This document shows positions 761 to 29,551 of a stretch of 37,928 bases of DNA, piece after piece. Below the pieces are notes generated by a model that saw only the letters and a list, made by a program, of their open reading frames with translations, did no database searches and was not told the origin of the DNA. The translations under genes and the position numbers were made by a program. The stretch lies in NCBI GenBank assembly GCA_024638565.1, contig JAHEKC010000004.1, positions 29,863 through 67,790 of the forward strand, read 5' to 3'. This DNA comes from Bacteroidota bacterium. GTDB taxonomy: Bacteria; Bacteroidota; Bacteroidia; AKYH767-A; OLB10. Within the stretch, counting starts at the first letter, position 1, and every line of letters begins with the position of its first letter.

Positions 761-2398
761 TTAGTTAAGCACAAAGTTCAGCGGGCTCAGTGCGCGCACC
801 GTGCCATCGGGGCCGGAGGCCCTGATATATTCGATATAGACCTTAGTGCCGATGGGTGAGCCTTTTACGATGCTCCTCATCTGGTTGGTAAAGCGATTCC
901 CCTTGCTTGACAGCTCGATGGGGTCACGGCCTTTCCGAACGATGGTCATCTTAAAGGAACGCACCCTGAAGTAGAGTTCGAAATCGAAGTTCTCCATGAT
1001 GGAAACGATACCCGGCTGTGCGGCCAGTGTGGCCTTGTTGATGGGTCCGCCTTTTTTGCCCGCACACTTGGCCACGGGGTCAGGCACCCGCTTGACGCGG
1101 TATTCCATGCTTCCCATGGATGTCTTTTTGCCGTCAAGTTCTGCGGAGACATTGATGTTCGCCTTTCCCTGGGTTTTGACGGTAACGACAAATTTTCCCG
1201 CACCGCGTTTTGGATCGCGCTTCAGGACCCCACCGCCGCCGGCGATGGATGGAAATACCTTTTCGTTGGGCACCCCCGGTACAGAAATTGACATGGGGTT
1301 GTCCACGCCAATGTAGAGTACATTCATCTTGTCAGCCGAGATCACCGTGGAAGGCCTGGCGGCCACATATTCTGCCTCGAAAGGATACGATTCCTCCTCG
1401 TTGGTTTCCGGGTTCTTGACCGTAATGAGGCCACCCCATTTCTTGATACCCTCGCTGCCGGGCTTTGATTCGTACTTGCCCAGGCCGCCTTCAACGGGAA
1501 CTTTAATGGCATCTCCCTTGATACTTTTCGTGACGGTATCCACCGCCCCAACCTGGATCATTGGATCTGCCGTGGAGCTGTAAGCGGCCAGGAATACGTC
1601 TGCCTTGTAGGTCTGCCCCAACAGCACATAGCTGGTGGGCGCAATTACGCGGGCCTGCAAGGCGTCAAACTTATAGCTTGCCGCATCGATCGCCTGGAAC
1701 AGGTAATTGACAATTTCCGATTCCGCGTTCTTCACGTCGGCCTGCATCTTGGTCATCAGGGCCACACAAGCCACCACGGGATTATGGTAGAAGTTTGCCA
1801 TTTCCCAGGTCTTCTTGTTATCCTTTACAGCGATGCGGCTTTTGGGGTCCGGGTCTGACGTAGTCAGCAGTTCGTCAAACCGCTCCTTGAATCGCTTCTG
1901 GTCCGCGGGATCGAGCCCTTTGACCACATTGGTCTTGAAGACGTCGATTTTGGTCTTGAGCTCCGTGGCCAGGGCACCTACGCCGTCATTGGCGTCACCG
2001 CACATTTCAAAGGTAGGGACGTCATAGTTCTCCTTATCCTCCACGTCTATAAGTGCCGGGGTCACCTCACCCTGGTCAATCTTGTCGACCTTCCGTACGA
2101 GGTGCTCCTTCAGCCCTTCAATGTAGTTAAACAACGAGTCGGACTCCTTTCTGGCGATCTTGGCCTTGTCGTAGAACGGCTTTGTTTTCGTTGGGTCGTT
2201 CTTCATCGCAAAGTCGAAGTCGCGATAGGCCTTATCGAGTTTGCCACTCGTATTCTTGTTCGTCACTTCCAGGCTGTCATTAACGGTTACAAATGCGTTA
2301 ATGATCTCCTTGGAGACGTTCAGGGCAAGGAGGGCGGTGAGTACGAGGTACATCATATTGATCATCCGCTGCCTCGGGGTTAATTTCGTACCTGCCAT
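761..2398 (-). CDS. gldM: Gliding motility / type IX secretion protein GldM (PorM)
   Basis: 545 aa ORF; N-terminus MAGTKLTPRQRMINMMYLVLTALLALNVSKEIINAFV is typical of GldM; gene order K-L-M-N. Confidence 0.95.
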   Translation of the reverse strand: MAGTKLTPRQRMINMMYLVLTALLALNVSKEIINAFVTVNDSLEVTNKNTSGKLDKAYRDFDFAMKNDPTKTKPFYDKAKIARKESDSLFNYIEGLKEHLVRKVDKIDQGEVTPALIDVEDKENYDVPTFEMCGDANDGVGALATELKTKIDVFKTNVVKGLDPADQKRFKERFDELLTTSDPDPKSRIAVKDNKKTWEMANFYHNPVVACVALMTKMQADVKNAESEIVNYLFQAIDAASYKFDALQARVIAPTSYVLLGQTYKADVFLAAYSSTADPMIQVGAVDTVTKSIKGDAIKVPVEGGLGKYESKPGSEGIKKWGGLITVKNPETNEEESYPFEAEYVAARPSTVISADKMNVLYIGVDNPMSISVPGVPNEKVFPSIAGGGGVLKRDPKRGAGKFVVTVKTQGKANINVSAELDGKKTSMGSMEYRVKRVPDPVAKCAGKKGGPINKATLAAQPGIVSIMENFDFELYFRVRSFKMTIVRKGRDPIELSSKGNRFTNQMRSIVKGSPIGTKVYIEYIRASGPDGTVRALSPLNFVLN

Positions 2399-2458: not shown

Positions 2459-3268
2459 TTACTTGTTGGCGTTGATGTTCATCGCCGACAGCATGTTTCC
2501 ATAGACCGTATTCAGTGAGGACAGGTTCTTGGCAAGCATTGCCACCTCTTCCTTGTATTTCCGTGTATCGTCCAGCGAGGAGTTGAGGTTTTCCATAAGC
2601 TGGTTGATACCTTCATAGAACCTGGAGGTTTGCTTCAGGTGGCTCGCAGAATCCTGCAGTTGCAGCTCGTAGTTCGCATTGATCGCCGCCATGTTCTTGC
2701 CGGCCGAGCGAAGCTGGTCATTGTAAACTTTCACATCCTCGGTTGTGGAGCTCATCTCGTTCATCACACCTGCGGCCTTGTCATAGGACTCCGTAAGGGT
2801 ATGCAGTGATGTGGCCGCCCCTTTGGCGTTCCGGGTGAACTCATCTGTGGCCGCGCCGGCATCGGTCATATCCGCCAGCTTGGCGGTATTGTCACCAAGC
2901 TTGGTGAGGCCCGTGCCGAGGCTTTGTATCAGATCCGGTCCCACATTCGCGTCAGCCAGCATCTTGTCAAGGGCCTGGGCAACGGGATCCGGCTTTTTCT
3001 TTTTGTTCTTGTCATAACCCGGCTCGTGCATGCCTGCGAGCTCCGGATAAACAAGCGACCAGTCCACATCTTCGTGAGGATCTTCGAAAGCGGAAAAGAA
3101 GAAGATGATGGCTTCAGTGCCAAGTCCAAGTACAAGGAAGAAGCCGGCACCGGGATAGTGCTGGATCTTAAACAGGGCACCAAGAATAACGATCGATGCG
3201 CCCCAACCATAGAGACGCATCATGAAGGTCTTGAACTTCTTGCCCTGGGTAAATTGGAACAGTCCCAT
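2459..3268 (-). CDS. gldL: Gliding motility / type IX secretion protein GldL (PorL)
   Basis: 269 aa; two N-terminal TM segments (MMRLYGWGASIVILGALFKIQHYPGAGFFLVLGLGTEAIIFFFSAFE), then a coiled region; between gldK and gldM. Confidence 0.95.
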   Translation of the reverse strand: MGLFQFTQGKKFKTFMMRLYGWGASIVILGALFKIQHYPGAGFFLVLGLGTEAIIFFFSAFEDPHEDVDWSLVYPELAGMHEPGYDKNKKKKPDPVAQALDKMLADANVGPDLIQSLGTGLTKLGDNTAKLADMTDAGAATDEFTRNAKGAATSLHTLTESYDKAAGVMNEMSSTTEDVKVYNDQLRSAGKNMAAINANYELQLQDSASHLKQTSRFYEGINQLMENLNSSLDDTRKYKEEVAMLAKNLSSLNTVYGNMLSAMNINANK

Positions 3269-3373: not shown

Positions 3374-4636
3374 TCAGAAGTCTGACTTATCCCTGCCCAA
3401 AAAGTCCATCACGCACCGGAACCCAATGTAGCATTTGGCGGTATCCTGGTATTCAAAACTCCGGGTACCGGTTTGGAGGTAATATCCGACGTCTTTCCAT
3501 GAACCACCGCGAATCACCTTCCTCTTGAGCGCCGGCGGGTCGGATTCGCTGGCCTCGTACTCGTAGTGCGGATTCAGGTCATGATTAAAGTTATAAGCAG
3601 CCTCGTCAAAGGCATCGCTGGTCCACTCTGCCACGTTGCCTGCCATGCAGTACAAGCCGTAGTCATTGGGCCAGTAGGAGGTGACTTTCACCGTGTAAAA
3701 GCCGCCGTCATCCAGGTAATTTCCCCGCATGGGCTTAAAGTTGCCGAGGAAGCAGCCACGGCTGTTACGGATGTACGGGCCGCCCCAGGGATAGGGTGAC
3801 ATGTCATTCCCGCCACGTGCGGCGTATTCCCATTCGGACTCCGTGGGCAGCCTGAAATCCTGCACGATGGTCTCCCCGTTCCCCATGAGGTAGCTGTCCA
3901 GCAACTGCGTCCTCCAGATACAGAAGGCGCGTGCCTGCTTCCAGTTCACCCCCACGACCGGATAGTCGTCATATGCCGGGTGCCAGAAATAACTCTTGGT
4001 GATCGGGTCGTTAAACGAGTAGGTATAGTCGTGTATCCAGGCAAGCGTGTCCGGGTACACATTAATAATGTCTTTCTTGATGAATACGGAACGATCCGTA
4101 TTGCCCTGCTCCCTGTTGCGCCGCTGGGCAGCCTCCTTGAGGTCAATCCAGTAATACTCGAAATTGAGCTTCCGGACGTCGATTTCCTTGCGCTTGTAGA
4201 ACCGCTCGCTCTCGGGCAGGTAAAGCTCCGCCAGCGTTTCGATGTTCTCTTCGTCATCCCAGCGGATGCGTTCGCGCCAGTTGATCGCCTCGCCATATTC
4301 CCCCTCATCTATGAGGTGCTCACCCCCGATAAGCCGGTGGGCAAGTGAATCGCGAACCCATTCAACGAATTGCCGATACTCGTTGTTGGTGATTTCGGTA
4401 TTGTCCATGTAAAATGCATGAACGGACACCGACTTGCTCTGGCGAACAAGTGCGTAGGGTACATCCTGATCGCCGGGACCCATCAGATACGAGCCGGAAG
4501 GGATGAACACCATACCGTATGGATCCGGCTGGTACCACTTCTCCCTTCCCTGCGCACCTACCAGCTGACCCTTGTTACCGCCTCCACAACTGCTCAGCAT
4601 AAGCAAGATGAATGAGCCGACGATAAGTTGTTTCAT
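3374..4636 (-). CDS. gldK: Gliding motility / type IX secretion lipoprotein GldK (PorK), SUMF1/FGE-sulfatase fold
   Basis: 420 aa; lipobox LMLSSC; SUMF1-type motifs FIPSGSYLMG, LPTESEWEYAARGG, NVAEWTSDAF, VIRGGSWKD. Confidence 0.95.
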   Translation of the reverse strand: MKQLIVGSFILLMLSSCGGGNKGQLVGAQGREKWYQPDPYGMVFIPSGSYLMGPGDQDVPYALVRQSKSVSVHAFYMDNTEITNNEYRQFVEWVRDSLAHRLIGGEHLIDEGEYGEAINWRERIRWDDEENIETLAELYLPESERFYKRKEIDVRKLNFEYYWIDLKEAAQRRNREQGNTDRSVFIKKDIINVYPDTLAWIHDYTYSFNDPITKSYFWHPAYDDYPVVGVNWKQARAFCIWRTQLLDSYLMGNGETIVQDFRLPTESEWEYAARGGNDMSPYPWGGPYIRNSRGCFLGNFKPMRGNYLDDGGFYTVKVTSYWPNDYGLYCMAGNVAEWTSDAFDEAAYNFNHDLNPHYEYEASESDPPALKRKVIRGGSWKDVGYYLQTGTRSFEYQDTAKCYIGFRCVMDFLGRDKSDF

Positions 4637-4774: not shown

Positions 4775-5686
4775 CTAGAGAAATCTTACGTTTTTAATCA
4801 GGGGTGGTTCCTTTTTGCGGATTTTGTGGCAATAGCCCAGTGAAATCTCATGGGTACCGTCACTGAAGTCCTTGATTTTAGACGTTGTTATATCATACGA
4901 GTAACCGATACGAAGGTTCTGCAGCACGGTGAATCCAAGCATGGCCACAATGGCATCCTCGGTCCGGTACGAAGCCCCGATATAAAAGCGGTCATTAAAA
5001 TGTGCGTTGATATTGATGTCTGTGATGGTTTTTGGTGATACGTTCTTGACGAAGACAGACGGCTTAAGGGCCACGGTTGGCGTCAGGTCCAGGCTCACGC
5101 CGGCCATGCCGTAAAAATGCCGCTTGATCTCGGTGGTCAGGTCCCCATAGTCTATTTCGCCTTCCAGCAGGTGGGTGGCCGAACCGCCTATGTAGAAATG
5201 CTCGTTGTTGTAATACACACCGGCACCAAGGTCGATGGCGCTGCCGCTCACGTTTCCTGAAGGGATCAACTGGTCATTGAGGTCGAGCGGGTTGAACTTC
5301 GTTCCGTCCAGGGAGCGTTGCATGATCCCCACATCGGCGCCAAGCGCAATCTTGCCGTTGCCCACATCCAGCCTGAGCGCATAGGCCAGCTTGGCGTTGA
5401 ACGTGCTTTCCGCACCAAGTTCATCTGTCATCAGCGTCAGACCAAGTCCACCGTGCAAAAACTCCACGGGCATATCCACACTCAGCAGTCCTGTCTTGGG
5501 CGCCCCTTCGAAACTTACCCACTGGCTCCTGTAAAGCAGTGAACCGCATATGGCATCATTGCTACCTGCCGTAGCGGGGTTTGGCTGCAACCGGTTGAAC
5601 ATATTGTGGCTGAACTGCGGGTCCTGCTGTCCGAAAGCTGTCGCCGAAAATGCGCAGCACAAGACGCCAATAAAGAATTTTCTCAT
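4775..5686 (-). CDS. PorP/SprF family type IX secretion membrane protein
   Basis: 303 aa; signal peptide; QDPQFSHNMFNRLQPNPATAGSNDAICGSLLYRSQWVSFEGAPKTGLLSVDMP is typical of PorP/SprF; adjacent to gldK. Confidence 0.93.
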   Translation of the reverse strand: MRKFFIGVLCCAFSATAFGQQDPQFSHNMFNRLQPNPATAGSNDAICGSLLYRSQWVSFEGAPKTGLLSVDMPVEFLHGGLGLTLMTDELGAESTFNAKLAYALRLDVGNGKIALGADVGIMQRSLDGTKFNPLDLNDQLIPSGNVSGSAIDLGAGVYYNNEHFYIGGSATHLLEGEIDYGDLTTEIKRHFYGMAGVSLDLTPTVALKPSVFVKNVSPKTITDININAHFNDRFYIGASYRTEDAIVAMLGFTVLQNLRIGYSYDITTSKIKDFSDGTHEISLGYCHKIRKKEPPLIKNVRFL

Positions 5687-5781
5687 AGGGAGGTTTCTAG
5701 AGTCGTTTAGGTGGGTTGTTAAGCCTTGAAAATCGGGGGGTAAAGTAACTAAAAAATTATTTTATTAACAAAAGGCTGTGA

Positions 5782-6957
5782 TCAGGCCATTTTCTGCAAT
5801 GCAAGCCACCAGCGGTCCGGTATCTCGTCATTACAGGCCTGTTCATAGTCCCGGTAGGAGCAGGGCAGGAAGTGGTGGCGTATAAGTTCGTTGCGGATTT
5901 TCCCGGTTGGCAGCTCCATCCACCACCTTTCGGTTTTTTTGCTCTTTAAAAACGTGATCTGCTGCTTGTTACCACTAACCGGAACCCGGTACACGGTAAA
6001 GCTTTTCTCGATCCTGCTGGCAGGCAGGTCCTGTTTTCTGTTTGAAAAGCCTTCGATGAAATACCAGATCATCTGGGCCGCCAGACCGGCCGTCTGTCCG
6101 TTGTCCTCACGACCCGGATCGAGTTCATACAGGCCCAGGCTTTGCAGCTTGTCGCTCATGCCCGCATAGTGCATGACCTGGCAGGCTTCATTGCCGAAAA
6201 ACCCGTTGGGTGAAGGGTGAAACGCCGCAGGCGCGTCGCTCTGCCGGATGGCCGACATGTCAACGGTCACCAGGTCTGCCCCCCTGATGATGGGCTCTGC
6301 CTCGCGCATGTCTTCCTGCACCTGCCCCAGCCGGTATGAATCGAAAAAGAGCTTTTCCATGAGCTGTACCTGCTCCTGGCCTACATAATAGGTCTGGTGA
6401 CCTATGTTACTGAAATTGAACAGGTAATTGGGTTGCTTTAGTACAATTCGACCCAGGTAGGTGGTGGAGGACATGGGTTCGTCAGGCCCTCCCAGGTCGA
6501 ACCGCGCATCGATGCCGGTGATGTTGATTACCTGCTCCAGGTTTTCAAAGGCCTTGTACTGTCCGAAGGTGAGATCCTGGCTGCCCCCGATGATCAGCGG
6601 CAGCATGCCCTTCTGGACAAGCTCCGTGACCACGGAACCCAATGCAAAGTAGGTGTCCTCAAGGGTGTTTCCCAGGACCAGGTTTCCGATATCCACGACC
6701 CTGTTGTCCTGGCTGTGCTTCTTCAGTGCATACAACCTGGAGCGGACGGCATCTGCCGCACCACCGAAAGCCTTGTCCTGCCCCGCCCCGCGGTATTCAT
6801 CCACTCCCATGATTACGAGGTCCGCCTCCGCGCCGGAAGGAAATTCCGACTGATCCGTATAGATGAGTGCCTGGCTGCGCAGGGCGTCATGCTGTTCGAA
6901 GGCTTTTCCTTCCAGCAGTTCGCTGCGCACGGGATTGAACAATCCTTCTATTTCCAT
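5782..6957 (-). CDS. Arginase/agmatinase/formimidoylglutamase (ureohydrolase) fold protein, likely with a degenerate metal site
   Basis: 391 aa; GGSQDLTFGQYKAF aligns with the GGDHS motif, GIDARFDLG with DAHxD, and TVDMSAIRQSDAPA with SxDxDxxDPxxAP. Confidence 0.8.
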   Translation of the reverse strand: MEIEGLFNPVRSELLEGKAFEQHDALRSQALIYTDQSEFPSGAEADLVIMGVDEYRGAGQDKAFGGAADAVRSRLYALKKHSQDNRVVDIGNLVLGNTLEDTYFALGSVVTELVQKGMLPLIIGGSQDLTFGQYKAFENLEQVINITGIDARFDLGGPDEPMSSTTYLGRIVLKQPNYLFNFSNIGHQTYYVGQEQVQLMEKLFFDSYRLGQVQEDMREAEPIIRGADLVTVDMSAIRQSDAPAAFHPSPNGFFGNEACQVMHYAGMSDKLQSLGLYELDPGREDNGQTAGLAAQMIWYFIEGFSNRKQDLPASRIEKSFTVYRVPVSGNKQQITFLKSKKTERWWMELPTGKIRNELIRHHFLPCSYRDYEQACNDEIPDRWWLALQKMA

Positions 6958-6981: not shown

Positions 6982-9603
6982 CTACTTGCCCGTCTTCTTC
7001 GTGGCCGGCTTTACTGCCGTTTTTGTTTTTGCGGCAGGTTTCTTCGCCGCCTTTTTGGCAACCTTTTTCTTCGCCGCCTTTTTGGCCGCCTTCTTCTTTA
7101 CGGCCTTCTTCGCGGCCTTCTTCACCGGCTTCCTGCCCGCAAGCTCCATTGCCTGCTCGAAAGTAAGCTTGGCCGGATCCGTTTCTGACGGGATCTTGAT
7201 GTTTTTTCTGCCCAGCTTGATATAGGGACCGAACTTCCCTTTCAGGACCTGGAGGTCCTTCCGTTCATCGAACCGCTTGATCACCTTCGCATTGGCGGCA
7301 TCGCGCTTGGTCTGAATGAGCTCCACGGCCTTGTCATACCCGATCTCGAACGGGTCCTCGGATTTGGGGATGGAATAAAATGCGCCCTTGTGCTTGACAT
7401 AGGGCCCGAAGCGCCCCCTCGAAACAATGACCTCCTCTTCCTCGAACGCGCCCAGCTTCCTGGGATTGCGCATCAGGTCCGGCGTCTTCCGGGCCTCCGT
7501 CACGATCTCCGTGACGCGCTGTACCGTTATCTCGTATGGATCTTCTTCCTTAGGCAGGGAATAGAATACCTCGCCATGCCTGATATAAGGGCCGTACCGC
7601 CCGATGGAGACGACCAGCTCCTGCTCTTCCAGGGCACCCATGTCGCGCGGCAGTTTGAACAGGTCAAGTGCCTCCTCCAGGGTGATGGTTTCCAGCCGCT
7701 GGCCCGGCCGCAGCTTGGCATAGGTGGGCTTTTCGTCGGAGTCGTCCTGCTTCTTTTGCGCCATGGGCCCGTAACGGCCTATACGCACGCTTACTGTCTT
7801 GTCCGACTTCGGATCCTTACCCAGGATGCGCTCCCCGGATGCCCGCTCCGATGTCTCTTCGGTAATGACAATTTTCTTGTGGAACGGCTTGTAGAAATCG
7901 GCCAGCATGCTGCGCCACTGCATGTTGCCTTCGGCGATATCGTCAAACTCCTTTTCAACCGTGGCGGTGAAGTTATAATCCAGGATATCACTGAAATTCT
8001 GCACCAGGAAGTCGGTGACCACCATACCGATGTCAGTGGGAAATAATTTATTTCGCTCGGCGCCGGTAATCTCCGTCTTGACATCGGATACCACCTTGCC
8101 TTCCTTGAGCGTGATCAGCCGGTATTCGCGTTCATGCCCCTCACGTTCCTCCTTGACCACATAACCACGCTTCTGAATGGTGGATATGGTGGGTGCATAG
8201 GTCGATGGCCGGCCAATACCAAGCTCTTCCAGCTTCTTGACCAGGCTTGCTTCCGTAAACCTCGGCGGGGGGTAGGTGAATCTTTCCCGTGCCTCGATAA
8301 TATCCAGCTCCAGCGACTGGTCTACTGCCAGGGGCGGAAGCAGGCCTTCCGCTTCCTTGTCCGTATCCTCGTCATCCGTGGATTCCAGGTAGACCTTCAG
8401 GAAACCGTCAAACTTGATCACTTCCCCGGTGGCGATGAATGCAGTTTCCACCTTTTCAGGCTGAATGGTGACGATGGTCTTTTCGAGGCGGGCATCGCTC
8501 ATTTGTGATGCGATGGCACGCTTCCAGATCAGGTCGTACAGCTTCTGTTCGCGGTTGTCGCCTTTCACCAGCTGCTTTTCGAAGTAGGTGGGCCGGATGG
8601 CTTCATGCGCCTCCTGTGCCGATGCAGATTTTGTTTTGTATTGGCGCGTTTTTGCATACGCTTCACCGAAATTCTTGTGGATCTCATCCTGCGCGGCCTT
8701 GAGCGCGAACTTGGACAGGTTCACCGAATCGGTTCGCATATAAGTAATGTGCCCGTTTTCATACAGCTTCTGCGCAACCATCATGGTCTGGCTCACGGAG
8801 AAACCGAGTTTCCTGGATGCTTCCTGCTGTAACGTGGAAGTCGTGAATGGCGGCGAGGGGGTACGCTTTCCGGGTTTTGTTTCCAGGTTGGAAACCTTGA
8901 ATGCTGAGCCGGCAAGCTTTCGCAGCAGGGATTCCGCTTCTTCGAGGGTTTTCAGCCGTTCCGGCAGTTCTGCCCTGATAAACCTGGGATTTCCGCTTTC
9001 ATCCTGGACGAGGAATGAACCCACAACCCGGTAGGACGAATGCGGCTCGTGCGCCATCACCGCCCGCTCCCGCTCCACGATCAGCCTGACAGCCACGGAT
9101 TGCACCCTGCCGGCGGACAGCTGGGGTTTGATCTTCTTCCACAGCACGGGCGACAGCTCAAAGCCCACCAGACGGTCCAGGATCCGGCGGGCCTGCTGGG
9201 CTTCCACCAGCCGCATGTCGATCTGCCTGGGATTCTCGATCGCTTCCCGGATAGCCGTCTTCGTGATTTCGTGGAATACGATACGCCGGGTTTTGGATTT
9301 CTTCAGTCCCAGCGAATCAAATAAATGCCATGAGATGGCTTCCCCTTCCCGGTCTTCATCAGTCGCAAGCCAGATTACCTGGGCCTTCCCGGCCTCCTTC
9401 TTCAGGTCCTTGATGACCTTTTCCTTTTCTTCCGGTATCAGGTAAACAGGTTCGAACTTGTTATCGATATCGACTGCCTTATCATTTTTCGCCAGGTCAC
9501 GTACATGGCCGTAGCTGGACATTACCTTGTAATCCCTGCCCAGGAATTTCTCGATGGTTTTAGCCTTCGCGGGCGACTCTACAATGACAAGATTACTGGC
9601 CAT
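6982..9603 (-). CDS. topA: DNA topoisomerase I (type IA) with a Lys/Ala-rich C-terminal tail
   Basis: 873 aa; MASNLVIVESPAKAKTIEKFLG, TDEDREGEAISWHL (TOPRIM), LSAGRVQSVAVRLIVERE, ITYMRTDSVNLS active-site region; repeated GRFGPYV modules; tail KKAAKKAVKKKAAKKAAKKKVAKKAAKKPAAKTK. Confidence 0.97.
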   Translation of the reverse strand: MASNLVIVESPAKAKTIEKFLGRDYKVMSSYGHVRDLAKNDKAVDIDNKFEPVYLIPEEKEKVIKDLKKEAGKAQVIWLATDEDREGEAISWHLFDSLGLKKSKTRRIVFHEITKTAIREAIENPRQIDMRLVEAQQARRILDRLVGFELSPVLWKKIKPQLSAGRVQSVAVRLIVERERAVMAHEPHSSYRVVGSFLVQDESGNPRFIRAELPERLKTLEEAESLLRKLAGSAFKVSNLETKPGKRTPSPPFTTSTLQQEASRKLGFSVSQTMMVAQKLYENGHITYMRTDSVNLSKFALKAAQDEIHKNFGEAYAKTRQYKTKSASAQEAHEAIRPTYFEKQLVKGDNREQKLYDLIWKRAIASQMSDARLEKTIVTIQPEKVETAFIATGEVIKFDGFLKVYLESTDDEDTDKEAEGLLPPLAVDQSLELDIIEARERFTYPPPRFTEASLVKKLEELGIGRPSTYAPTISTIQKRGYVVKEEREGHEREYRLITLKEGKVVSDVKTEITGAERNKLFPTDIGMVVTDFLVQNFSDILDYNFTATVEKEFDDIAEGNMQWRSMLADFYKPFHKKIVITEETSERASGERILGKDPKSDKTVSVRIGRYGPMAQKKQDDSDEKPTYAKLRPGQRLETITLEEALDLFKLPRDMGALEEQELVVSIGRYGPYIRHGEVFYSLPKEEDPYEITVQRVTEIVTEARKTPDLMRNPRKLGAFEEEEVIVSRGRFGPYVKHKGAFYSIPKSEDPFEIGYDKAVELIQTKRDAANAKVIKRFDERKDLQVLKGKFGPYIKLGRKNIKIPSETDPAKLTFEQAMELAGRKPVKKAAKKAVKKKAAKKAAKKKVAKKAAKKPAAKTKTAVKPATKKTGK

Positions 9604-9742: not shown

Positions 9743-11242
9743 ATGGCACAAAGGGAAAACAGTCATATTGAATTGGATAGGCAAGCAACCGCAACTGCAA
9801 GCCGGCATGATGTGCAAACGGCAATCCGCGGCCGGTTTTACATTGAAAGCTATGGCTGCCAGATGAACTTTTCGGACAGCGAGATCGTGGCATCCATCCT
9901 TTCGGAAGAAGGGTATGCGCTTACGCGCGATGCCGCGCAGGCCGACATGGTTTTTCTGAATACCTGTGCCATCCGGGACAATGCGGAGCAGCGGGTCCGG
10001 CAAAGACTGCAGGATTTCCGTCAGCACAAACAAAGGAAGCCCGGCCTGGTGGTGGGCATGCTGGGCTGTATGGCAGAAAGGCTGAAGACCCAATTGCTGG
10101 ACGAGGAGAAACTGGTGGACCTGGTGGCAGGCCCGGATGCATACCGTGACCTTCCGCGACTGGTGGAAAGCGCCTCCGGCGGCCAGAAAGCCGTGAATGT
10201 GTTGCTGTCCCGGGAGGAAACGTATGCAGACATCAGCCCCGTGCGCCTGTCGCCCGGTGGCATTACGGCTTTCCTGTCAATCATGCGCGGCTGCGACAAC
10301 ATGTGCTCCTTCTGCGTGGTGCCGTTCACCAGGGGCCGGGAACGCAGCCGTGACCCGGTGTCCATTGCAGCGGAAGCGAAACATCTGTACCTGAATGGAT
10401 GCAGGGAGATCACCCTCCTGGGACAGAATGTGGATTCATACCTGTGGCATGCTGGTCCCAACGACAAGAAAGGCATCCGCCGTGCCGGCGTGGATGGGGA
10501 GGCTCTTTCCTTCGCGGGGCTGCTGGACCGCGTGGCACGCATTCATCCTGACCTTCGCATCCGCTTCTCGACCAGCAACCCGCGTGACATGACAGATGAT
10601 GTGCTGCATGTCATGGCAGCTCATGAAAATATCTGCAAATACATCCACCTGCCGGTGCAGTCCGGTTCCACCGTTGTGCTTGAGCGCATGAACCGGGGTT
10701 ACAGCAGGGCGGAATATATGGATCGCATTGCGGCCATCCGCCGCATCCTGCCCGGATGCGGCATCTCCACGGATATCATCTGCGGGTTCTGCGGCGAAAC
10801 GGAAGATGAGCACCACGAAACACTTGATGTGATGCGGGAGGTAGCCTTCGATTTCGCCTATATGTTCGCTTACTCCGAAAGACCGGGTACAGCTGCAGCC
10901 AGGCAGTACCGGGACGACATTTCTTCTGAGGTGAAATCGCGCCGGCTGCGTGAAGTGGTGGACCTTCAGATGGCGCTTTCTCTTGAAAGCAATGAAAAGG
11001 ATGTGGGCAGCGTTTTCCGCGTGCTGGCTGAAGGTCCGTCGCGGCGCTCACCCGATGACCTGTTCGGAAGGAATTCACAGAACAAGGTGATCGTATTCCC
11101 TGCCGGCGATCATAAGCCGGGGGATTATACAGATATCCTCGTGGACAGGTGCACGGCTGCCACCTTGTTGGGCAAAACAAAAGGACACAACGGCAAAGTG
11201 TCACAACCCGGAACGCTGCAGGGATCCGGTGAGGTGGAATAG
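9743..11242 (+). CDS. miaB: tRNA (N6-isopentenyl adenosine(37)-C2)-methylthiotransferase MiaB
   Basis: Radical-SAM methylthiotransferase: SYGCQMNFSDSE, LNTCAIRDNAEQR, MLGCMAERL, MRGCDNMCSFCVVPFTRGRERSR. ORF track opens at TTG 9725; ATG at 9743 preferred. Confidence 0.95.
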   Translation: MAQRENSHIELDRQATATASRHDVQTAIRGRFYIESYGCQMNFSDSEIVASILSEEGYALTRDAAQADMVFLNTCAIRDNAEQRVRQRLQDFRQHKQRKPGLVVGMLGCMAERLKTQLLDEEKLVDLVAGPDAYRDLPRLVESASGGQKAVNVLLSREETYADISPVRLSPGGITAFLSIMRGCDNMCSFCVVPFTRGRERSRDPVSIAAEAKHLYLNGCREITLLGQNVDSYLWHAGPNDKKGIRRAGVDGEALSFAGLLDRVARIHPDLRIRFSTSNPRDMTDDVLHVMAAHENICKYIHLPVQSGSTVVLERMNRGYSRAEYMDRIAAIRRILPGCGISTDIICGFCGETEDEHHETLDVMREVAFDFAYMFAYSERPGTAAARQYRDDISSEVKSRRLREVVDLQMALSLESNEKDVGSVFRVLAEGPSRRSPDDLFGRNSQNKVIVFPAGDHKPGDYTDILVDRCTAATLLGKTKGHNGKVSQPGTLQGSGEVE

Positions 11243-11283
11243 TGTTTCCGGCCCGGCATGCACGCGGCAAACAAATTAAACGG

Positions 11284-12504
11284 ATGAAAGTACAGGATAT
11301 CAAACAACGGTTCGGCATCATCGGCGGCTCACCGGAACTGGACCATGCCATCGATACCGCCCGGCAGGTGGCCTCCACCGACCTGACCGTACTTATCACG
11401 GGCGAAAGCGGGTCAGGGAAGGAGGTATTTCCCCAGATCATCCATCAGCTGAGTGCACGCAAGCATGGCTCATATATCGCTGTCAACTGCGGTGCCATAC
11501 CGGAAGGCACCATTGATTCTGAATTGTTCGGGCATGAAAAGGGATCGTTTACCGGCGCACACGAGGCACGCAAGGGTTATTTCGAGGTCGTCAACGGGGG
11601 CACCATTTTCCTGGACGAAGTGGCGGAGTTACCCCTGCTCACACAGGTGAGGCTGCTGCGTGTGCTCGAATCCGGTGAATTCATCCGGGTAGGTTCTTCC
11701 AAGGTGCAGAAAACAGATGTGCGGGTGGTGGCAGCCTCCAACGTGGACCTGCCACAGGCCATCGGCAAAGGAAAGTTCAGGGAAGACCTTTACTACCGGC
11801 TCAACACAGTCCCCATCCATATTCCAGCGCTGCGCGAACGCAAGGACGACATCATGCTCCTGTTCCGGAGATTCGCAAGTGACTTTGCGGATAAGTACAA
11901 AATGCCGCCGGTGAAGCTGCTTCCCGAAGCCCGGAAGCTGTTGACGGATTACCGCTGGACCGGCAATGTCAGGCAACTGAAAAACGTGACGGAACAGTTA
12001 TCCATCCTTGAAAAGGAAAAGGAGATCACCGGTGAGGTATTGATGAAATACCTGCCCAAGGATTTATTTTCGTCCGTGCCTGCCTTGTATCATGACCCTT
12101 CCAAACAGGATTTTAATGAACGGGAAATTCTCTACAAGGTGCTGCTGGAAATGCGCAAGGATGTAAACGATCTTAAAAAACTTGTCCTCGGCATCATTGA
12201 ACAGGGAGGGGCGGGTGAAATCGAAAAGCATAACGTTCAGCTTATAGACCGGCTCACGCGTGATGTGGTCGAAAGCCCGGCGGAAAATGAAACCATCACC
12301 TTTCAGCCCGGACCCGCGCAACCTGCCCCTATAGAGCCACACGAGGAAGTGGAAGAGACGCTGTCCATCTCTGAAAAGGAAAAGGAGCTGATAAAGAAAG
12401 CCATCGAAAAGCACCGCGGCAAAAGAAAGCATGCCGCCAGGGAACTGGGCATTTCCGAACGAACCCTGTACAGGAAAATCCAGGAATACGGGCTTAAGGT
12501 CTGA
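11284..12504 (+). CDS. Sigma-54-interacting AAA+ transcriptional activator with Fis-type HTH and no receiver domain
   Basis: Walker A GESGSGKE, GSFTGA (sigma-54 contact loop), GGTIFLDEVAEL Walker B, WTGNVRQLKN; C-terminal KRKHAARELGISERTLYRKIQEYGL. ORF track opens at GTG 11242; ATG 11284 preferred. Confidence 0.92.
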   Translation: MKVQDIKQRFGIIGGSPELDHAIDTARQVASTDLTVLITGESGSGKEVFPQIIHQLSARKHGSYIAVNCGAIPEGTIDSELFGHEKGSFTGAHEARKGYFEVVNGGTIFLDEVAELPLLTQVRLLRVLESGEFIRVGSSKVQKTDVRVVAASNVDLPQAIGKGKFREDLYYRLNTVPIHIPALRERKDDIMLLFRRFASDFADKYKMPPVKLLPEARKLLTDYRWTGNVRQLKNVTEQLSILEKEKEITGEVLMKYLPKDLFSSVPALYHDPSKQDFNEREILYKVLLEMRKDVNDLKKLVLGIIEQGGAGEIEKHNVQLIDRLTRDVVESPAENETITFQPGPAQPAPIEPHEEVEETLSISEKEKELIKKAIEKHRGKRKHAARELGISERTLYRKIQEYGLKV

Positions 12505-16668: not shown

Positions 16669-18465
16669 CTAGTTAACCACGAACTTCTTCACCAGGCGAC
16701 GGCCTCCTGAAAAAACGGTTATAAAGTACAATCCGCCGGTCCAGCCGCTTGTGTCCAGGAAAAAACTTTCCTGGTCCGTACCGGGATGACGGGCTCCTGC
16801 CTTAAGCAGGCGTCCCCTGGAATCGGTTACTTCCAACCGAAGATGCTTGCCGGCCAATCCGGAACACACCACCACGACACCATTGCCGGTAACGGGCACG
16901 ATGCCGAAAGACCATAAACCGATATTCGCATGTCCCGCGGCAGCGGACGGTAAATCATTGCATATGGTCAATCCCGTTCCCGCAAGGTACCGTTCCCTGG
17001 CAGGGATGGTCTGCCCGCCCACGGGGTTGGGTGTGCCGATATTCGGAAACGGCGAGGCGATGTTCCAGAATGCCGGAACGGCATCAAGGTAATAGGAAGT
17101 GTCATCCAGCACCTGGGTCCCCGGCGGCACAATGACCCCGTTGTCGTTGTTGCCGTACTCAAGGTGATCCGTACCACTAAGGGCATATTGCCCCTGGCCT
17201 AACCCGGTGCCGGTAATATCGTTTCCCACGAAATTCTGCCGGTCGCTGTCGACCGAACCGCCCAGGCATATGACGCCATACCGCTCCACACGGTTCCGGA
17301 AAAAAGTATTGAAGGGCCCGGAGGGACCCCATGCCTGGTCGATCACCAGGTTCTGGCAGATGTTACCCTCGAACAAATTGGCAAAAGGGAAGTGCCCGTG
17401 CAGGGAGATGTCCGCACCGAAATCATTCGGGAATTCGGATCGAAAGGGATCGATGGAATAATTATAGGCAAACACATTCCCGCTGGCCCCCTGCTTGACC
17501 ATCATGGCATGGCGCAGGAACCGGAAAATGTTATTCTCGATCCTGCTGTCGCCCGTATGCGCGGCCATCACCACACCGTACCCGTGCGTGGATGCACCGT
17601 CGTAATTGTATGCATGATGAAAATAGGAACCCGTGATCTCCAGGTGGCTGCTGGTCTCCGCCCAGACATGCGCCCCGATGCTTGACACGCTTTCGATACC
17701 GCGAATCCTGCAATGCACGGCGTACTGGCAGTAAACCGCGTAATTGACACCGGGCGCCGTACTGTCGGTCCGGCTTATAGAAAGGCATTCTAGCCCGCTG
17801 GCAAAACGCGGTGTGATCTGGCGGATTTCCGGCTGCAGGGCCACGTTCAAATTCATGCGCAGCGGTGTATCTATGTATACCGAATCTCCCGCCACGGAAT
17901 CGACCCGTGCCATATGTCCCACTGAATACTGGGCCCAGGCGGCCGGGTTGGTATCCCAGGATCCGTTCAGCTGCCGCAATTCGATATGGTCTCCCGCAGA
18001 AAACAGGTACGCACTGTCCGAGACCAGCTTTCGCGAGTCCTTTTCCAGGCCACCGGCCAAAGGGTAATACGGAGCGGTTTGCCCCTTGACGATATTGATA
18101 CAATTGCTTGTCATTCCGCCCAGATCAAAAACCAGGCGGCTCGCTGCAGCAGAAGCGCCCTTCAGCATCATGCTGTCACCCATGTACACCGGACCGTTCA
18201 TCAGGTAGTTGCCCGCGGGAAAATAGACCACGCCATTTCCGTTAAGTGAAGTCATCGCGGCAACCACGGCCGGCAGGTCGTTGGTGATGCCATTGCCCGC
18301 AGCGCCGAAAGCAGTCACGTCCGCCACATTGGATGTGTCCACATTGAAACCGGAGGCCCCTGCCCCGGACCAATCCGTTCGTATCGAATCCGGGATCACC
18401 TGCCCATGGCTGGCAATGGCGTAGGCCATAAACAGCAGGCACGTGGCTGTATGGCGAGAGGTCAT
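16669..18465 (-). CDS. Secreted pectate-lyase-like parallel beta-helix protein with T9SS C-terminal sorting domain
   Basis: 598 aa; signal peptide; VADVTAFGAAGNGITNDLPAVVAAMTSLNGNGVVYFPAGNYLM (pectate-lyase-3-like); C-terminal LKAGARHPGTDQESFFLDTSGWTGGLYFITVFSGGRRLVKKFVVN. Confidence 0.85.
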   Translation of the reverse strand: MTSRHTATCLLFMAYAIASHGQVIPDSIRTDWSGAGASGFNVDTSNVADVTAFGAAGNGITNDLPAVVAAMTSLNGNGVVYFPAGNYLMNGPVYMGDSMMLKGASAAASRLVFDLGGMTSNCINIVKGQTAPYYPLAGGLEKDSRKLVSDSAYLFSAGDHIELRQLNGSWDTNPAAWAQYSVGHMARVDSVAGDSVYIDTPLRMNLNVALQPEIRQITPRFASGLECLSISRTDSTAPGVNYAVYCQYAVHCRIRGIESVSSIGAHVWAETSSHLEITGSYFHHAYNYDGASTHGYGVVMAAHTGDSRIENNIFRFLRHAMMVKQGASGNVFAYNYSIDPFRSEFPNDFGADISLHGHFPFANLFEGNICQNLVIDQAWGPSGPFNTFFRNRVERYGVICLGGSVDSDRQNFVGNDITGTGLGQGQYALSGTDHLEYGNNDNGVIVPPGTQVLDDTSYYLDAVPAFWNIASPFPNIGTPNPVGGQTIPARERYLAGTGLTICNDLPSAAAGHANIGLWSFGIVPVTGNGVVVVCSGLAGKHLRLEVTDSRGRLLKAGARHPGTDQESFFLDTSGWTGGLYFITVFSGGRRLVKKFVVN

Positions 18466-18536
18466 AAAAGCAGCGTTCTTGTTTTAAAAAAGAATCGAAC
18501 TATAAATTTCATACAAGTCAATGCATGACACTTCCT

Positions 18537-19757
18537 TTAACCTTTTATCACCTTCCTGAATACAGTAGTTGCGGCCGTTCGAATCTCGACAATGTACACG
18601 CCCGGTGACAGGCCTGAAAAATCCAGGTGAAACACTGTCATTCCGCTGTGCACAGATACTGGGCGTACATGCCGTTCTTTCCCCCGGGAATCCAGGATCC
18701 TTAACTGCTCAACTTCCGCGCCGGGAAACCGTACCACCAATTCCGTACTTACAGGATTCGGAAACAAGGACAACATGATCTGTCCGGTTTCCCCTGCCGA
18801 TGTCACGGAGTCCGGTGTGTATTCCCACAGATCGGAAGCGTAATTCCCTCCCGTGTTGCCCATACCGATATAGCCCTTGCCGCCAATCGCGAAGCCGAAT
18901 GCATCGTCGCGTGCCTGGCCGCCGAAGCTTGCTTTTTGTGTCCATATATCGGGCACAGGGTCGTACTGCCAAAAATCCTGCATGTAGTTGGCGGTGCCCT
19001 GCCTGCCCGTACCGACGTAACCGAAATTTCCGAGACTGAAGGAGACCGCCCAGAATCGCGGGCCTCCGCCAAAACTTGCCAGCTGCGTCCAGGTATCACC
19101 GACCGGATCGTAAGTCCATAACTCATCGAGATCGCCGGTTCCGTCACGACCCGTGGCGATATACCCGTCTGTCCCGATGGTAAAACCCGTGCAGTATATC
19201 CGTTCCGTACCTGCAAAATCGTTGAGTTGCGTCCATTGGTCCGCCACCGGATCGTACTCCCAGAAATCCTTGCGCATCACCGGGAAATTGGAGTCCGTAC
19301 CGGTGCCTACGTATCCCTTGCCGTTGATGGCAAATGCAAAGCAATAGCCTGCAGGTCCGCCGCCGTAGGATGCAATGGGTGACCAAATGTTGTTTTGCGT
19401 ATCGTAACCATAAAAGTCGTCCTGGTAATTCCCCCCGCCGCAACTCGTGCCCGTACCCACGTACCCTACGCTGTCAATGGCAAATCCTACCCCGGCATTA
19501 CGCACCACGCCAGGATATGAGGCGAGCTGGGTCCACGTGTCGGTGGACTGGTCGTACGACCAGAAGTCGTTCAGGCAGGGGCCCATGTAGCCCGTGGCCA
19601 TATAGGCTTTGGTCCCCACGACGAATCCCGCCGGCCCCTCCCGGCCGGGGCCTGACAGGCCAGATTTGGAGGTCCAGCTGTCGGCAGTAACAGTTTGCAC
19701 CCATCCAGTAAGAAAAAACAACAATAAACGTATCCGGGTCATCAATCGACTGTTCAA
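18537..19757 (-). CDS. Secreted kelch-repeat beta-propeller protein with T9SS C-terminal sorting domain
   Basis: 406 aa; repeated GYVGTG...DFWxYDPxxDxWTQLASFGG modules; C-terminal LFPNPVSTELVVRFPGAEVEQLRILDSRGK...GLSPGVYIVEIRTAATTVFRKVIKG. Confidence 0.88.
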   Translation of the reverse strand: MNSRLMTRIRLLLFFLTGWVQTVTADSWTSKSGLSGPGREGPAGFVVGTKAYMATGYMGPCLNDFWSYDQSTDTWTQLASYPGVVRNAGVGFAIDSVGYVGTGTSCGGGNYQDDFYGYDTQNNIWSPIASYGGGPAGYCFAFAINGKGYVGTGTDSNFPVMRKDFWEYDPVADQWTQLNDFAGTERIYCTGFTIGTDGYIATGRDGTGDLDELWTYDPVGDTWTQLASFGGGPRFWAVSFSLGNFGYVGTGRQGTANYMQDFWQYDPVPDIWTQKASFGGQARDDAFGFAIGGKGYIGMGNTGGNYASDLWEYTPDSVTSAGETGQIMLSLFPNPVSTELVVRFPGAEVEQLRILDSRGKERHVRPVSVHSGMTVFHLDFSGLSPGVYIVEIRTAATTVFRKVIKG

Positions 19758-24666: not shown

Positions 24667-25380
24667 CTAACGCTTCAGCACCCTCCGGTAAACGGCTTCC
24701 CGGCCGCGTAAACGGACTTCCACGATATATATTCCCGGGGACAGCACACCGGCCTGCATACGCCCCTTATAGGGCCGTGACAGGCACAGCTCGCCCAGCA
24801 CATTAAAAATTCTTACGCGTTCAATTAATTCCGGTGATTCCGTAAGGACCTCAAATCCATCTGAAAAGGGATTCGGCGATAATGTAAACGACTGGTTATG
24901 TGGCCCTACCGGTGCAACCAGCGTCAGGATGGGATTGAAGCAGACGGTGAGTGTATCGTAGTCGGCGGCAATGGTGGTGGAGTTGCTGCTGCGGGGCCAG
25001 ACCACCACAATGTTGCTGCCGGTTTTATACCGGGTGCTGTCATAGGTATAAGTGGTCACGAATGAAACCGTGTCATTGGGGTTGAAGTTGGAGGTCAGCC
25101 CGAAGGAAGCGATGTCCTCCTGGTATACGGATACGGCCACGGAATCCGTATTCTTCCAGGCCACGATCAGCGTATCGCCCACCTGCATGGCCGTATTGCC
25201 CACATTATGAAAGGTCACCTGCATGGTCACCAGCTGCTGGTGAAACACGGTGTCCGGGCACACCTGGAATCCTGCCAGTTGCGTGATGGAAACCAGCGGG
25301 GTGGCACCCTGCCCGTGACCCTGTCGGGGCAGCATGGCCACCTGCAAGGCCAGGAGAAGCACGATTATTCTGTTGCGCAT
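24667..25380 (-). CDS. Secreted protein with T9SS C-terminal sorting domain (CARDB-like body)
   Basis: 237 aa; signal peptide; C-terminal FTLSPNPFSDGFEVLTESPELIERVRIFNVLGELC...GVLSPGIYIVEVRLRGREAVYRRVLKR. Confidence 0.8.
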   Translation of the reverse strand: MRNRIIVLLLALQVAMLPRQGHGQGATPLVSITQLAGFQVCPDTVFHQQLVTMQVTFHNVGNTAMQVGDTLIVAWKNTDSVAVSVYQEDIASFGLTSNFNPNDTVSFVTTYTYDSTRYKTGSNIVVVWPRSSNSTTIAADYDTLTVCFNPILTLVAPVGPHNQSFTLSPNPFSDGFEVLTESPELIERVRIFNVLGELCLSRPYKGRMQAGVLSPGIYIVEVRLRGREAVYRRVLKR

Positions 25381-26996: not shown

Positions 26997-27004
26997 TACC
27001 TTTG
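26997..27004 (+). promoter_or_regulatory. Putative Bacteroidota -7 box upstream of the PKD-domain gene
   Basis: TACCTTTG matches TAnnTTTG; a second copy, TAAATTTG, lies at 26962-26969; gene start at 27053. Confidence 0.4.
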
Positions 27005-27052
27005 TTTCCGGGTTTGGAATTCCGCCCGCATGAACCGATAAAAACAATTGCT

Positions 27053-29551
27053 ATGAAAAAAACACTACGCTTTTTACTTCTCGCGCCGGCCCTGATGGTC
27101 ATGGCGCAAACAGCTTCGGCCCAGTCGACCCAGACCTGTCTGGCGGGCTTCGGCTTCAACATCCAGGGTACCGTCGTCACATTCTTCGACTCCTCGTTTG
27201 ACAGCATCGGTACCGTCACCTCCTGGCAATGGAGCTTCGGTGACGGAACAGGTTCTACCCAGCAAAACCCCGTCCATACGTTTAACGCCATGGGCACCTA
27301 TACGGTCTGCCTGACCATCTCCACCTCTTCGGGCTGCATGGACAGCACCTGCCATGTGGTCACCATTGGCGCGGGTTGCCCGCTCACCGCCGGCATCGTG
27401 CCGGACACGCTGAATAACGTCCTGCATGCGGTGGCGAACCAAGGCACACCACCATATACCTATTCGTGGTCCCTCAACGGCAACACCATCGCGGGTGCCA
27501 ACGGCCAGACATACACACCCACGACACCGGGTCAGTATTGTGTGACGATCACGGATGCGAATAACTGTACCGCGTCTGCTTGCTATAACTTCCAGCCTTC
27601 CAGCGGCTGCTCGGTCAACGCCGCGTTCCAGACCGGCGGCGGCGGGGTAGTACACTTCTTCGGTATGGTGGCAGGGAATTACTCCTACTATACCTGGACC
27701 TTCGGCGACGGCGACACCTCCTCGGTACTCAATCCCGTTCACACCTATGCCAATCCGGGTACCTATATCGCTTGCCTGACGGCATATGACTCCACGGGAA
27801 ACGTCTGCAATTCCTATTGCGTGACGATAAACATTAATGCAGTGCCTAACGACAGCATTTGCGGAAAACTGTTCTGGGATACAAATGGCAACGGGATCAT
27901 GGATCCCGGCGAGGCAGGTATCCCCGGTGGAGTGGTAACCATTTCCGGAAACGGGGTTTTCATTACCGCACAGTCGGACAGCAACGGCTGCTATGTCGCA
28001 CCGGTGATGCCCGGTACGTACACCATCGTGTACTGCACCAGCCCGGGCAACGTGTTCACCATCCCGCTTAACGTGGACAGCGGCGGATGCGCCTACTATC
28101 ACCAGGTGGTGGTATCCATGGGCAGCAACGGCTGCGGATATAACTTCGGCATCCAGAATACAGCCGTAACCATCGAAGGCATGCTTTTCATAGACGCGAA
28201 TAACAACGGCACGCTAGACGCAGGAGAGAGCGGCATCCCCTACCAGGGTGTTTCAGTGGGAGGATATACCGCGTACTCGAATCCCGCCGGCATATATTCG
28301 GTTAACGTACCGGCCGGCACTTATACGGTGTCCTACACACCCACGGGACTGTATGCGCCCTACAGCCTGTCCACGCCGGGAAGCATTACCGTTAACGCCA
28401 CTACCGTGGGGAATACCTACGGCGGCAACCATTTCGGACTGTACATCCCGCCGGGCACGGTGAACCTTTCGGTGAACCTGAGCGCAGGTACCACCATCAC
28501 ACCGGGATTCCCTGCATGGTATTACATCCAGGTGTGCAACATTGGCATCACGCCTACAGCAGCCACGCTGACCATGAACTACGATGCCGGGCTGTCGCTC
28601 GATTATGCAAATCCGACGCAGGCATCCAACAACACGACGAACAACATCCTTACCTGGAACCTGCCTGTTATCGCACCGGGAGGCTGTGTGAACGTGTTTG
28701 TCGACTTCGATGCCTCGACGAGCTACCAGGTGGGCGCCAGCGTGGTGCAGATGGTCAATGTATCACCGGTTAGCGGCAATGATGTCGACCTGACCAACAA
28801 TGTCGATACCGTGCACCAGATCGTAACCAGCTCATGGGATCCCAACAACAAACTGTCCGTCAAGACGAACACGAATAACCCCAACGAGCAGGTGATCTCG
28901 AGCATCAACAGCAACCAGACCATCGAGTATACCGTCAACTTCCAGAATACGGGTAGCGCTCCCGCGGTCAACGTGGTGGTGCTCGACGACCTGTCGCCGG
29001 ACCTGGATGCCTCTACCTTCCAGCTGCTGGGCACGAGCCACAATTGCAACGTCACGCAGAATGGCAGCGATCTCCAGTTTGTATTCTCGAATATCATGCT
29101 CCCGGATTCGACCACGAACGAACCGGCGAGCCACGGGCATATAAATTTCAGGGTGGATGCCGTGAACGCCCTGCCCGCAGGGACCGTGATCAGCGACCAG
29201 GCAGCGATCTACTTCGATTTCAACGCGCCCGTGCTGACCAACTTCGCCAATGTCTTGCTGGTGAACCCGCTGGGCATCAACGAATCAGGAAATGACTTCC
29301 TGGGACTGACCGCCTGGCCCAACCCGACTGCCGGTACCACGCAAATTCAGTACGAACTCACAAAATCAGCTGAAGTGACAGCGGTGCTGCACGATGCATC
29401 GGGCCGCAGGGTGGCAACCCTGGAGGACCGCCAGCAGGGCCCCGGCATCCATACGATTGCATGGGATGCCTCTTCAGTAGGTACGGGTATCTACCTGCTG
29501 GAGCTGCGCGCTAACGGCCACCGGGCCCTGTACAAGCTGAGCGTATTCTGA
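27053..29551 (+). CDS. Large secreted adhesin-like protein: PKD domains, SdrD-B-like domains, conserved-repeat (DUF11/DUF7619-like) domain, T9SS sorting domain
   Basis: ATG 27053 with signal peptide; PKD WSFGDGTGSTQQNPVHTFNAMGTYTVCLTI and WTFGDGDTSSVLNPVHTYANPGTYIACLTA; SdrD-B-like GKLFWDTNGNGIMDPGEAGIPGGVV and MLFIDANNNGTLDAGESGIP; SSWDPNNKLSV; C-terminal AWPNPTAGTTQIQYELTKSAEVTAVLHDASGRRVATLEDRQQGPGIHTIAWDASSVGTGIYLLELRANG. Confidence 0.9.
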   Translation: MKKTLRFLLLAPALMVMAQTASAQSTQTCLAGFGFNIQGTVVTFFDSSFDSIGTVTSWQWSFGDGTGSTQQNPVHTFNAMGTYTVCLTISTSSGCMDSTCHVVTIGAGCPLTAGIVPDTLNNVLHAVANQGTPPYTYSWSLNGNTIAGANGQTYTPTTPGQYCVTITDANNCTASACYNFQPSSGCSVNAAFQTGGGGVVHFFGMVAGNYSYYTWTFGDGDTSSVLNPVHTYANPGTYIACLTAYDSTGNVCNSYCVTININAVPNDSICGKLFWDTNGNGIMDPGEAGIPGGVVTISGNGVFITAQSDSNGCYVAPVMPGTYTIVYCTSPGNVFTIPLNVDSGGCAYYHQVVVSMGSNGCGYNFGIQNTAVTIEGMLFIDANNNGTLDAGESGIPYQGVSVGGYTAYSNPAGIYSVNVPAGTYTVSYTPTGLYAPYSLSTPGSITVNATTVGNTYGGNHFGLYIPPGTVNLSVNLSAGTTITPGFPAWYYIQVCNIGITPTAATLTMNYDAGLSLDYANPTQASNNTTNNILTWNLPVIAPGGCVNVFVDFDASTSYQVGASVVQMVNVSPVSGNDVDLTNNVDTVHQIVTSSWDPNNKLSVKTNTNNPNEQVISSINSNQTIEYTVNFQNTGSAPAVNVVVLDDLSPDLDASTFQLLGTSHNCNVTQNGSDLQFVFSNIMLPDSTTNEPASHGHINFRVDAVNALPAGTVISDQAAIYFDFNAPVLTNFANVLLVNPLGINESGNDFLGLTAWPNPTAGTTQIQYELTKSAEVTAVLHDASGRRVATLEDRQQGPGIHTIAWDASSVGTGIYLLELRANGHRALYKLSVF

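Follow-up and report, generated by a model that had tools for sequence, protein, structure and literature searches.

A widespread arginase-fold family of Bacteroidia, probably pseudoenzymes, with a degenerate metal site and a conserved C-terminal domain

Here, we describe a gene encoding an arginase-fold protein of 391 residues in which three of the six metal ligands of a ureohydrolase are replaced. It was found in a stretch of 37,928 nucleotides from a Bacteroidota genome, which is called the window below. The gene lies between topA and a cluster of type IX secretion system (T9SS) genes, in the following arrangement:

6982..9603, minus strand: topA, ending 24 bp upstream of the start of the pseudo-ureohydrolase gene and its probable operon mate; the product has a Lys/Ala-rich C-terminal tail
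5782..6957, minus strand: the pseudo-ureohydrolase gene (arginase fold plus C-terminal domain), an intact open reading frame of 391 codons
5736..5748, minus strand: promoter-like element TTACTTTACCCCC with an upstream TTTTG, in the gap (5687-5781) before porP, present in 14 of 15 order relatives
4775..5686, minus strand: porP/sprF-like gene, the next gene downstream, named from the original prediction and from its recurrent order before gldK
3374-4636, minus strand: gldK, from the gene list of the window
2459-3268, minus strand: gldL, with a TIGR03513 match (at G000:C129:32342-33091)
761-2398, minus strand: gldM, from the gene list of the window

That the protein keeps the arginase scaffold, as had been claimed from the sequence, is borne out by profile and structure comparisons. 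The protein matches the Pfam Arginase family (PF00491) at 67 bits (cut-off 22), and an AlphaFold2 model computed from an alignment of 38 orthologues (pLDDT 89.6, pTM 0.91) has T. cruzi formiminoglutamase as its first PDB fold match in Foldseek (E 7e-18, probability 1.00), with other formiminoglutamases and ureohydrolases, metformin hydrolase beta among them, as further matches. The best NCBIfam model is hutG (TIGR01227), but its curated cut-off for the formimidoylglutamase equivalog is 229 bits and the protein scores only 79. The 391 residues contain nothing resembling a signal or a membrane-spanning segment (maximum 19-residue hydropathy 1.35), and the protein would be cytoplasmic. A search for papers linking formimidoylglutamase or arginase to type IX secretion, gliding, gldK or topA returned nothing on this gene.

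In arginases, the first His serves metal site A together with three Asp; site B has the second His and the last Asp, and two Asp are shared between the sites. The ureohydrolase ligand series H-D-H-D-D-D corresponds here to Q127-D150-R152-D154-D233-S235, read from the translation and the orthologue census in three motifs:

6574..6588, minus strand: GGSQD, residues 124-128, the canonical His ligand replaced by Gln127
6496..6510, minus strand: DARFD, residues 150-154, Asp150 and Asp154 kept and the canonical His replaced by Arg152
6250..6264, minus strand: VDMSA, residues 232-236, Asp233 kept and the canonical second Asp replaced by Ser235

A phmmer alignment places these motifs on the ligand motifs of T. 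cruzi formiminoglutamase, so that this sequence alignment and the motif read-out agree with the original prediction on which three of the six ligands are replaced. With the ligands exclusive to site B (152 and 235) lost, a Q-D-D-D remnant of site A remains.

The substitutions are conserved well beyond the host. Orthologues from whole-genome searches and from named contigs were aligned to one profile (n=144, with 129 main-clade and 15 outlying members), and none of the 144 has the full six-ligand set of a catalytic ureohydrolase: three ligands are kept in 111, four in 14 and two or fewer in 19. Within the main clade, D150 and D233 are invariant, position 154 is Asp in 118 of 129 members and position 235 is Asp in none, while position 152, Arg here, varies within the family and is His in 8. 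Canonical paralogues from the same genomes, put through the same search and profile, read HDHDDD in four of five cases; the fifth departs at a single aligned position, perhaps through the alignment itself. Taken by itself, the GGxH change is not diagnostic, since position 127 is still His in 9 of the 129 and T. cruzi formiminoglutamase, whose structure was solved with Mn2+2, has Asn where our protein has Gln127; as read from the alignments, the diagnostic change is the loss of site-B ligands 152 and 235. Automated annotation would call the protein a formimidoylglutamase or arginase that is active despite an unusual metal site, and HutG is indeed its best NCBIfam model and formiminoglutamases are its closest solved structures, but with a score so far below cut-off, both site-B ligands lost class-wide and canonical paralogues coexisting in many genomes, we give this reading a negligible chance.

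A census of Bacteroidia genomes at 95% completeness or more (n=296) found the gene in 276 (about 93%), and for at least one genome that seems to lack it (G491) the cause is a contig break. The orthologues group in one clade against the canonical members (support 100/99), with several long branches and an unsure inner order, and outside the class there are only weaker matches, at about 25-31% identity, that resemble ordinary family members. Vertical inheritance within class Bacteroidia is the best explanation. The orthologues thus combine a conserved fold with a conserved loss of catalytic residues, as pseudoenzymes do, and the family is very probably not a ureohydrolase and is probably a pseudoenzyme. 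The original prediction of a pseudoenzyme rather than a formimidoylglutamase or arginase is well supported by the class-wide substitutions, the sub-cut-off TIGR01227 score, the separate clade and the new conserved domain described below.

Could such a protein be the inactive subunit of a heteromeric ureohydrolase? Metformin hydrolase beta sets the precedent: four of its six ligands are replaced, it holds no metal and it is essential for the alpha subunit (PMC11399263). It is among the Foldseek matches of our model, and the host genome encodes two other PF00491 proteins with canonical motifs. However, an active family member is not always in the genome. The protein is the sole PF00491 member in five genomes of 99-100% completeness (G129, G292, G244, G392 and G168), which rules out a heteromeric partner subunit as the general role. 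The window has no ureohydrolase gene next to this one, and none was recognised among the recurrent neighbours at related loci. Hence we consider an inactive-subunit role highly improbable.

The arginase fold is followed by a further conserved part:

5785..6030, minus strand: C-terminal domain, about residues 310-391 (~82 residues), delimited by conservation and structure prediction

A C-terminal extension had been predicted and is indeed present, but it spans about 82 residues and not just the 34 quoted, and its best-conserved parts (RWW and PC...Y...A...P..WW...K) lie partly outside the quoted stretch. Its invariant or near-invariant residues are F336, K338, R344-W345-W346, P365-C366, Y371, A374, P380, W383 and K389, and when folded alone the domain is predicted as beta-beta-beta-beta-alpha-alpha (pLDDT 82). 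Searched alone, it gave no Pfam family for the window protein, with only single-member weak matches for relatives, and no PDB fold with E below 0.001. No second copy was found in the host or in 24 other genomes; the domain occurs once per genome where present, and thus is not a widely shared module in the genomes tried.

The 15 outlying orthologues, in which even D150, D154 and D233 get lost, separate the fate of the metal site from that of the rest of the protein. They keep 22 of 50 site-A letters, against 133 of 161 letters of the C-terminal domain and 192 of 231 of the core (Fisher p 3e-7 and 4e-8, respectively, values which are descriptive because the rows are related). The core and C-terminal positions were chosen as conserved ones, and the contrast is nonetheless reasonable because conservation of the site-A positions in that main set is almost as high. 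Loci L048-L127 were fetched by peptide patterns that included the RWW motif, so the conservation of their C-terminal domain is partly by selection; the unbiased set from whole-genome searches (L001-L047) gives the same picture, with 481 of 484 letters kept in the C-terminal domain and 172 of 176 site-A letters reading Q, D, D, D in the main clade. Decay of site A with the core and the C-terminal domain retained is what would be expected of a protein kept for binding and not for chemistry.

The near-invariance of these four positions in the main clade also speaks for an enzyme with new chemistry, which would use either a single metal at the old site A or new catalytic residues, and the Mn2+2-bound T. 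cruzi structure with its Asn at the first position points the same way. Gln127, Asp150, Asp154 and Asp233 could, judging by their conservation, hold a single metal for a non-ureohydrolase activity, and among the many invariant polar residues the conserved Cys259 and Cys366, Arg209, Arg225 and Glu221 are candidates for new catalytic residues. Yet the site-A letters are gone in most outlying orthologues that retain the rest, and Asn occupies the counterpart of human arginase Glu277 in 13 of 44 members. We therefore regard a new catalytic activity as improbable.

Turning to the neighbourhood, the predicted location between topA and the T9SS cluster recurs: the order topA-gene-(porP)-gldK is found in 12 of 12 order relatives, in 18 of 29 class genomes and in 21 of 65 named contigs. 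The median distance is 24 bp between topA and the gene (also 24 bp in the window) and 153 bp between the gene and porP or gldK (95 bp in the window). Where the cluster is broken, the gene stands beside topA only in 13 contigs and beside T9SS genes only in none. In the order relatives that carry the gap element, it lies 43-72 bases ahead of the porP match and consists of TTTTG or something close to it, a spacer of about 20 bases, TTACTTTA and usually a C-rich stretch. The TTACTTTA core is present in 20 of 55 syntenic loci against about 1 in shuffles, the rows being related. Promoters of Bacteroidota have the form TTTG / TAnnTTTG, which the spacing of the gap element recalls. It is likely, as far as sequence can tell, the promoter of a porP-gldKLMN operon, and in the simplest reading the pseudo-ureohydrolase gene would belong to the topA transcript, with the T9SS operon beginning after it. 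As a regulon-wide T9SS promoter, TTACTTTA was rejected, having two exact matches genome-wide of which the other lies inside or next to unrelated genes.

The original prediction went further and tied the protein possibly to type IX secretion. It might be an accessory factor of T9SS or gliding, namely a cytosolic regulator or assembler of the GldLM/PorLM motor or of the PorP-GldKN complex, and it does show the recurrent adjacency to T9SS genes expected of a component. In addition, its presence correlates with that of GldL: 274 genomes have both, 2 the gene only, 15 GldL only and 5 neither (Fisher p about 1e-5, with no phylogenetic correction). Its phyletic distribution is, however, not the same as that of SprA and GldL. 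Twelve genomes from several families have SprA without the pseudo-ureohydrolase gene, and G377 and G032 (of one genus) and G466 have the gene without SprA, while sister genera or species, in the case of G377 and G032 sister genera within their family, have SprA; G466 is 95% complete, and the absence of SprA there may be an assembly gap. Presence uncoupled in both directions means that the gene is neither necessary nor sufficient for T9SS. Given also that the gene is the nearer to topA, which it keeps when clusters break, and that an order-conserved promoter-like element stands between it and porP, the proposed tie to type IX secretion is weak, and we think a T9SS accessory role unlikely.

Some further observations concern the same genomes and loci. 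G032 keeps a GldL match despite missing SprA, and G377 and G032 are possible cases of partial T9SS loss. The C-terminal end of TopA (6982-7150, minus strand) is a long Lys/Ala-rich tail (KKAAKKAVKKKAAKK...) that resembles histone H1 tails. In four loci of relatives (L099, L104, L109 and L120), a sigma-54 type response regulator directly follows the pseudo-ureohydrolase gene, and a relative of this regulator is encoded in the window at 11242-12504. Several predicted exported proteins (16669-19757, 24667-25380 and 27002-29551) have ends that by eye resemble the T9SS C-terminal sorting domain, with a GVYIVEI / GIYLLELR-like strand and then a basic end, and are likely cargo near the T9SS genes.

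In light of this family probably being pseudoenzymes, what might its role be? We favour, as a fairly likely reading, a binding role without catalysis in which the C-terminal domain is a main part, because about half of the ligands are lost across all 144 orthologues and yet the gene and its conserved tail are kept in about 93% of the class genomes sampled. An ancestor with the arginase/formimidoylglutamase fold would have permanently lost metal site B, and thereby ureohydrolase chemistry, and would have gained a C-terminal domain of about 80 residues. The arginase fold would then act as a scaffold for binding, and the C-terminal domain, with its RWW / PC / Y / P motifs, may combine with the remodelled pocket into a conserved surface to which a partner protein or small ligand binds. 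For the 391-residue protein itself, we infer the absence of catalysis as well as the binding role and molecular function. TopA, whose gene lies nearest, would be no less plausible a partner than any T9SS part. One tentative option is that the protein is a housekeeping binding module, made up of the C-terminal domain and the emptied pocket, which is coupled to topoisomerase I (nucleoid/transcription) or acts as a small-molecule sensor and is merely parked beside the T9SS operon.

Our findings also matter for genome annotation. A gene present in most genomes of the class is probably annotated as formimidoylglutamase or arginase and very likely does something else, and such annotation would wrongly credit many organisms with histidine or arginine catabolism. 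In addition, the family provides a bacterial case of probable pseudoenzymes with a graded decay across the tree that starts from an intact site-A set and ends in full loss.

Among known systems, HutG, such as T. cruzi formiminoglutamase (4MXR/2A0M), is the closest: it shares the fold, is the best PDB sequence match, and has counterparts of D150, D154 and D233 together with a non-His residue at the first site-A position. The 391-residue protein differs from HutG in having no site-B His and Asp, in falling below the NCBIfam cut-off, in belonging to a separate clade and in its C-terminal domain, which HutG lacks; nor do we know of such a domain in the arginase-like protein of T. brucei. Metformin hydrolase (dimethylguanidine hydrolase) beta is likewise a bacterial member of the ureohydrolase family whose ligands are degenerate and whose role is non-catalytic, but it works as the obligate partner of the active alpha subunit, whose gene is adjacent (PMC11399263), whereas our protein has no partner gene and in five genomes occurs without any other family member. 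Lastly, the T. brucei arginase-like protein is a known pseudo-arginase, which has the ureohydrolase fold but evolved with no dinuclear metal cluster (Hai et al. 2015, as cited in PMC10820115). It is a member of the arginase branch from a single protist lineage, whereas in Bacteroidia the loss is fixed across a bacterial class.
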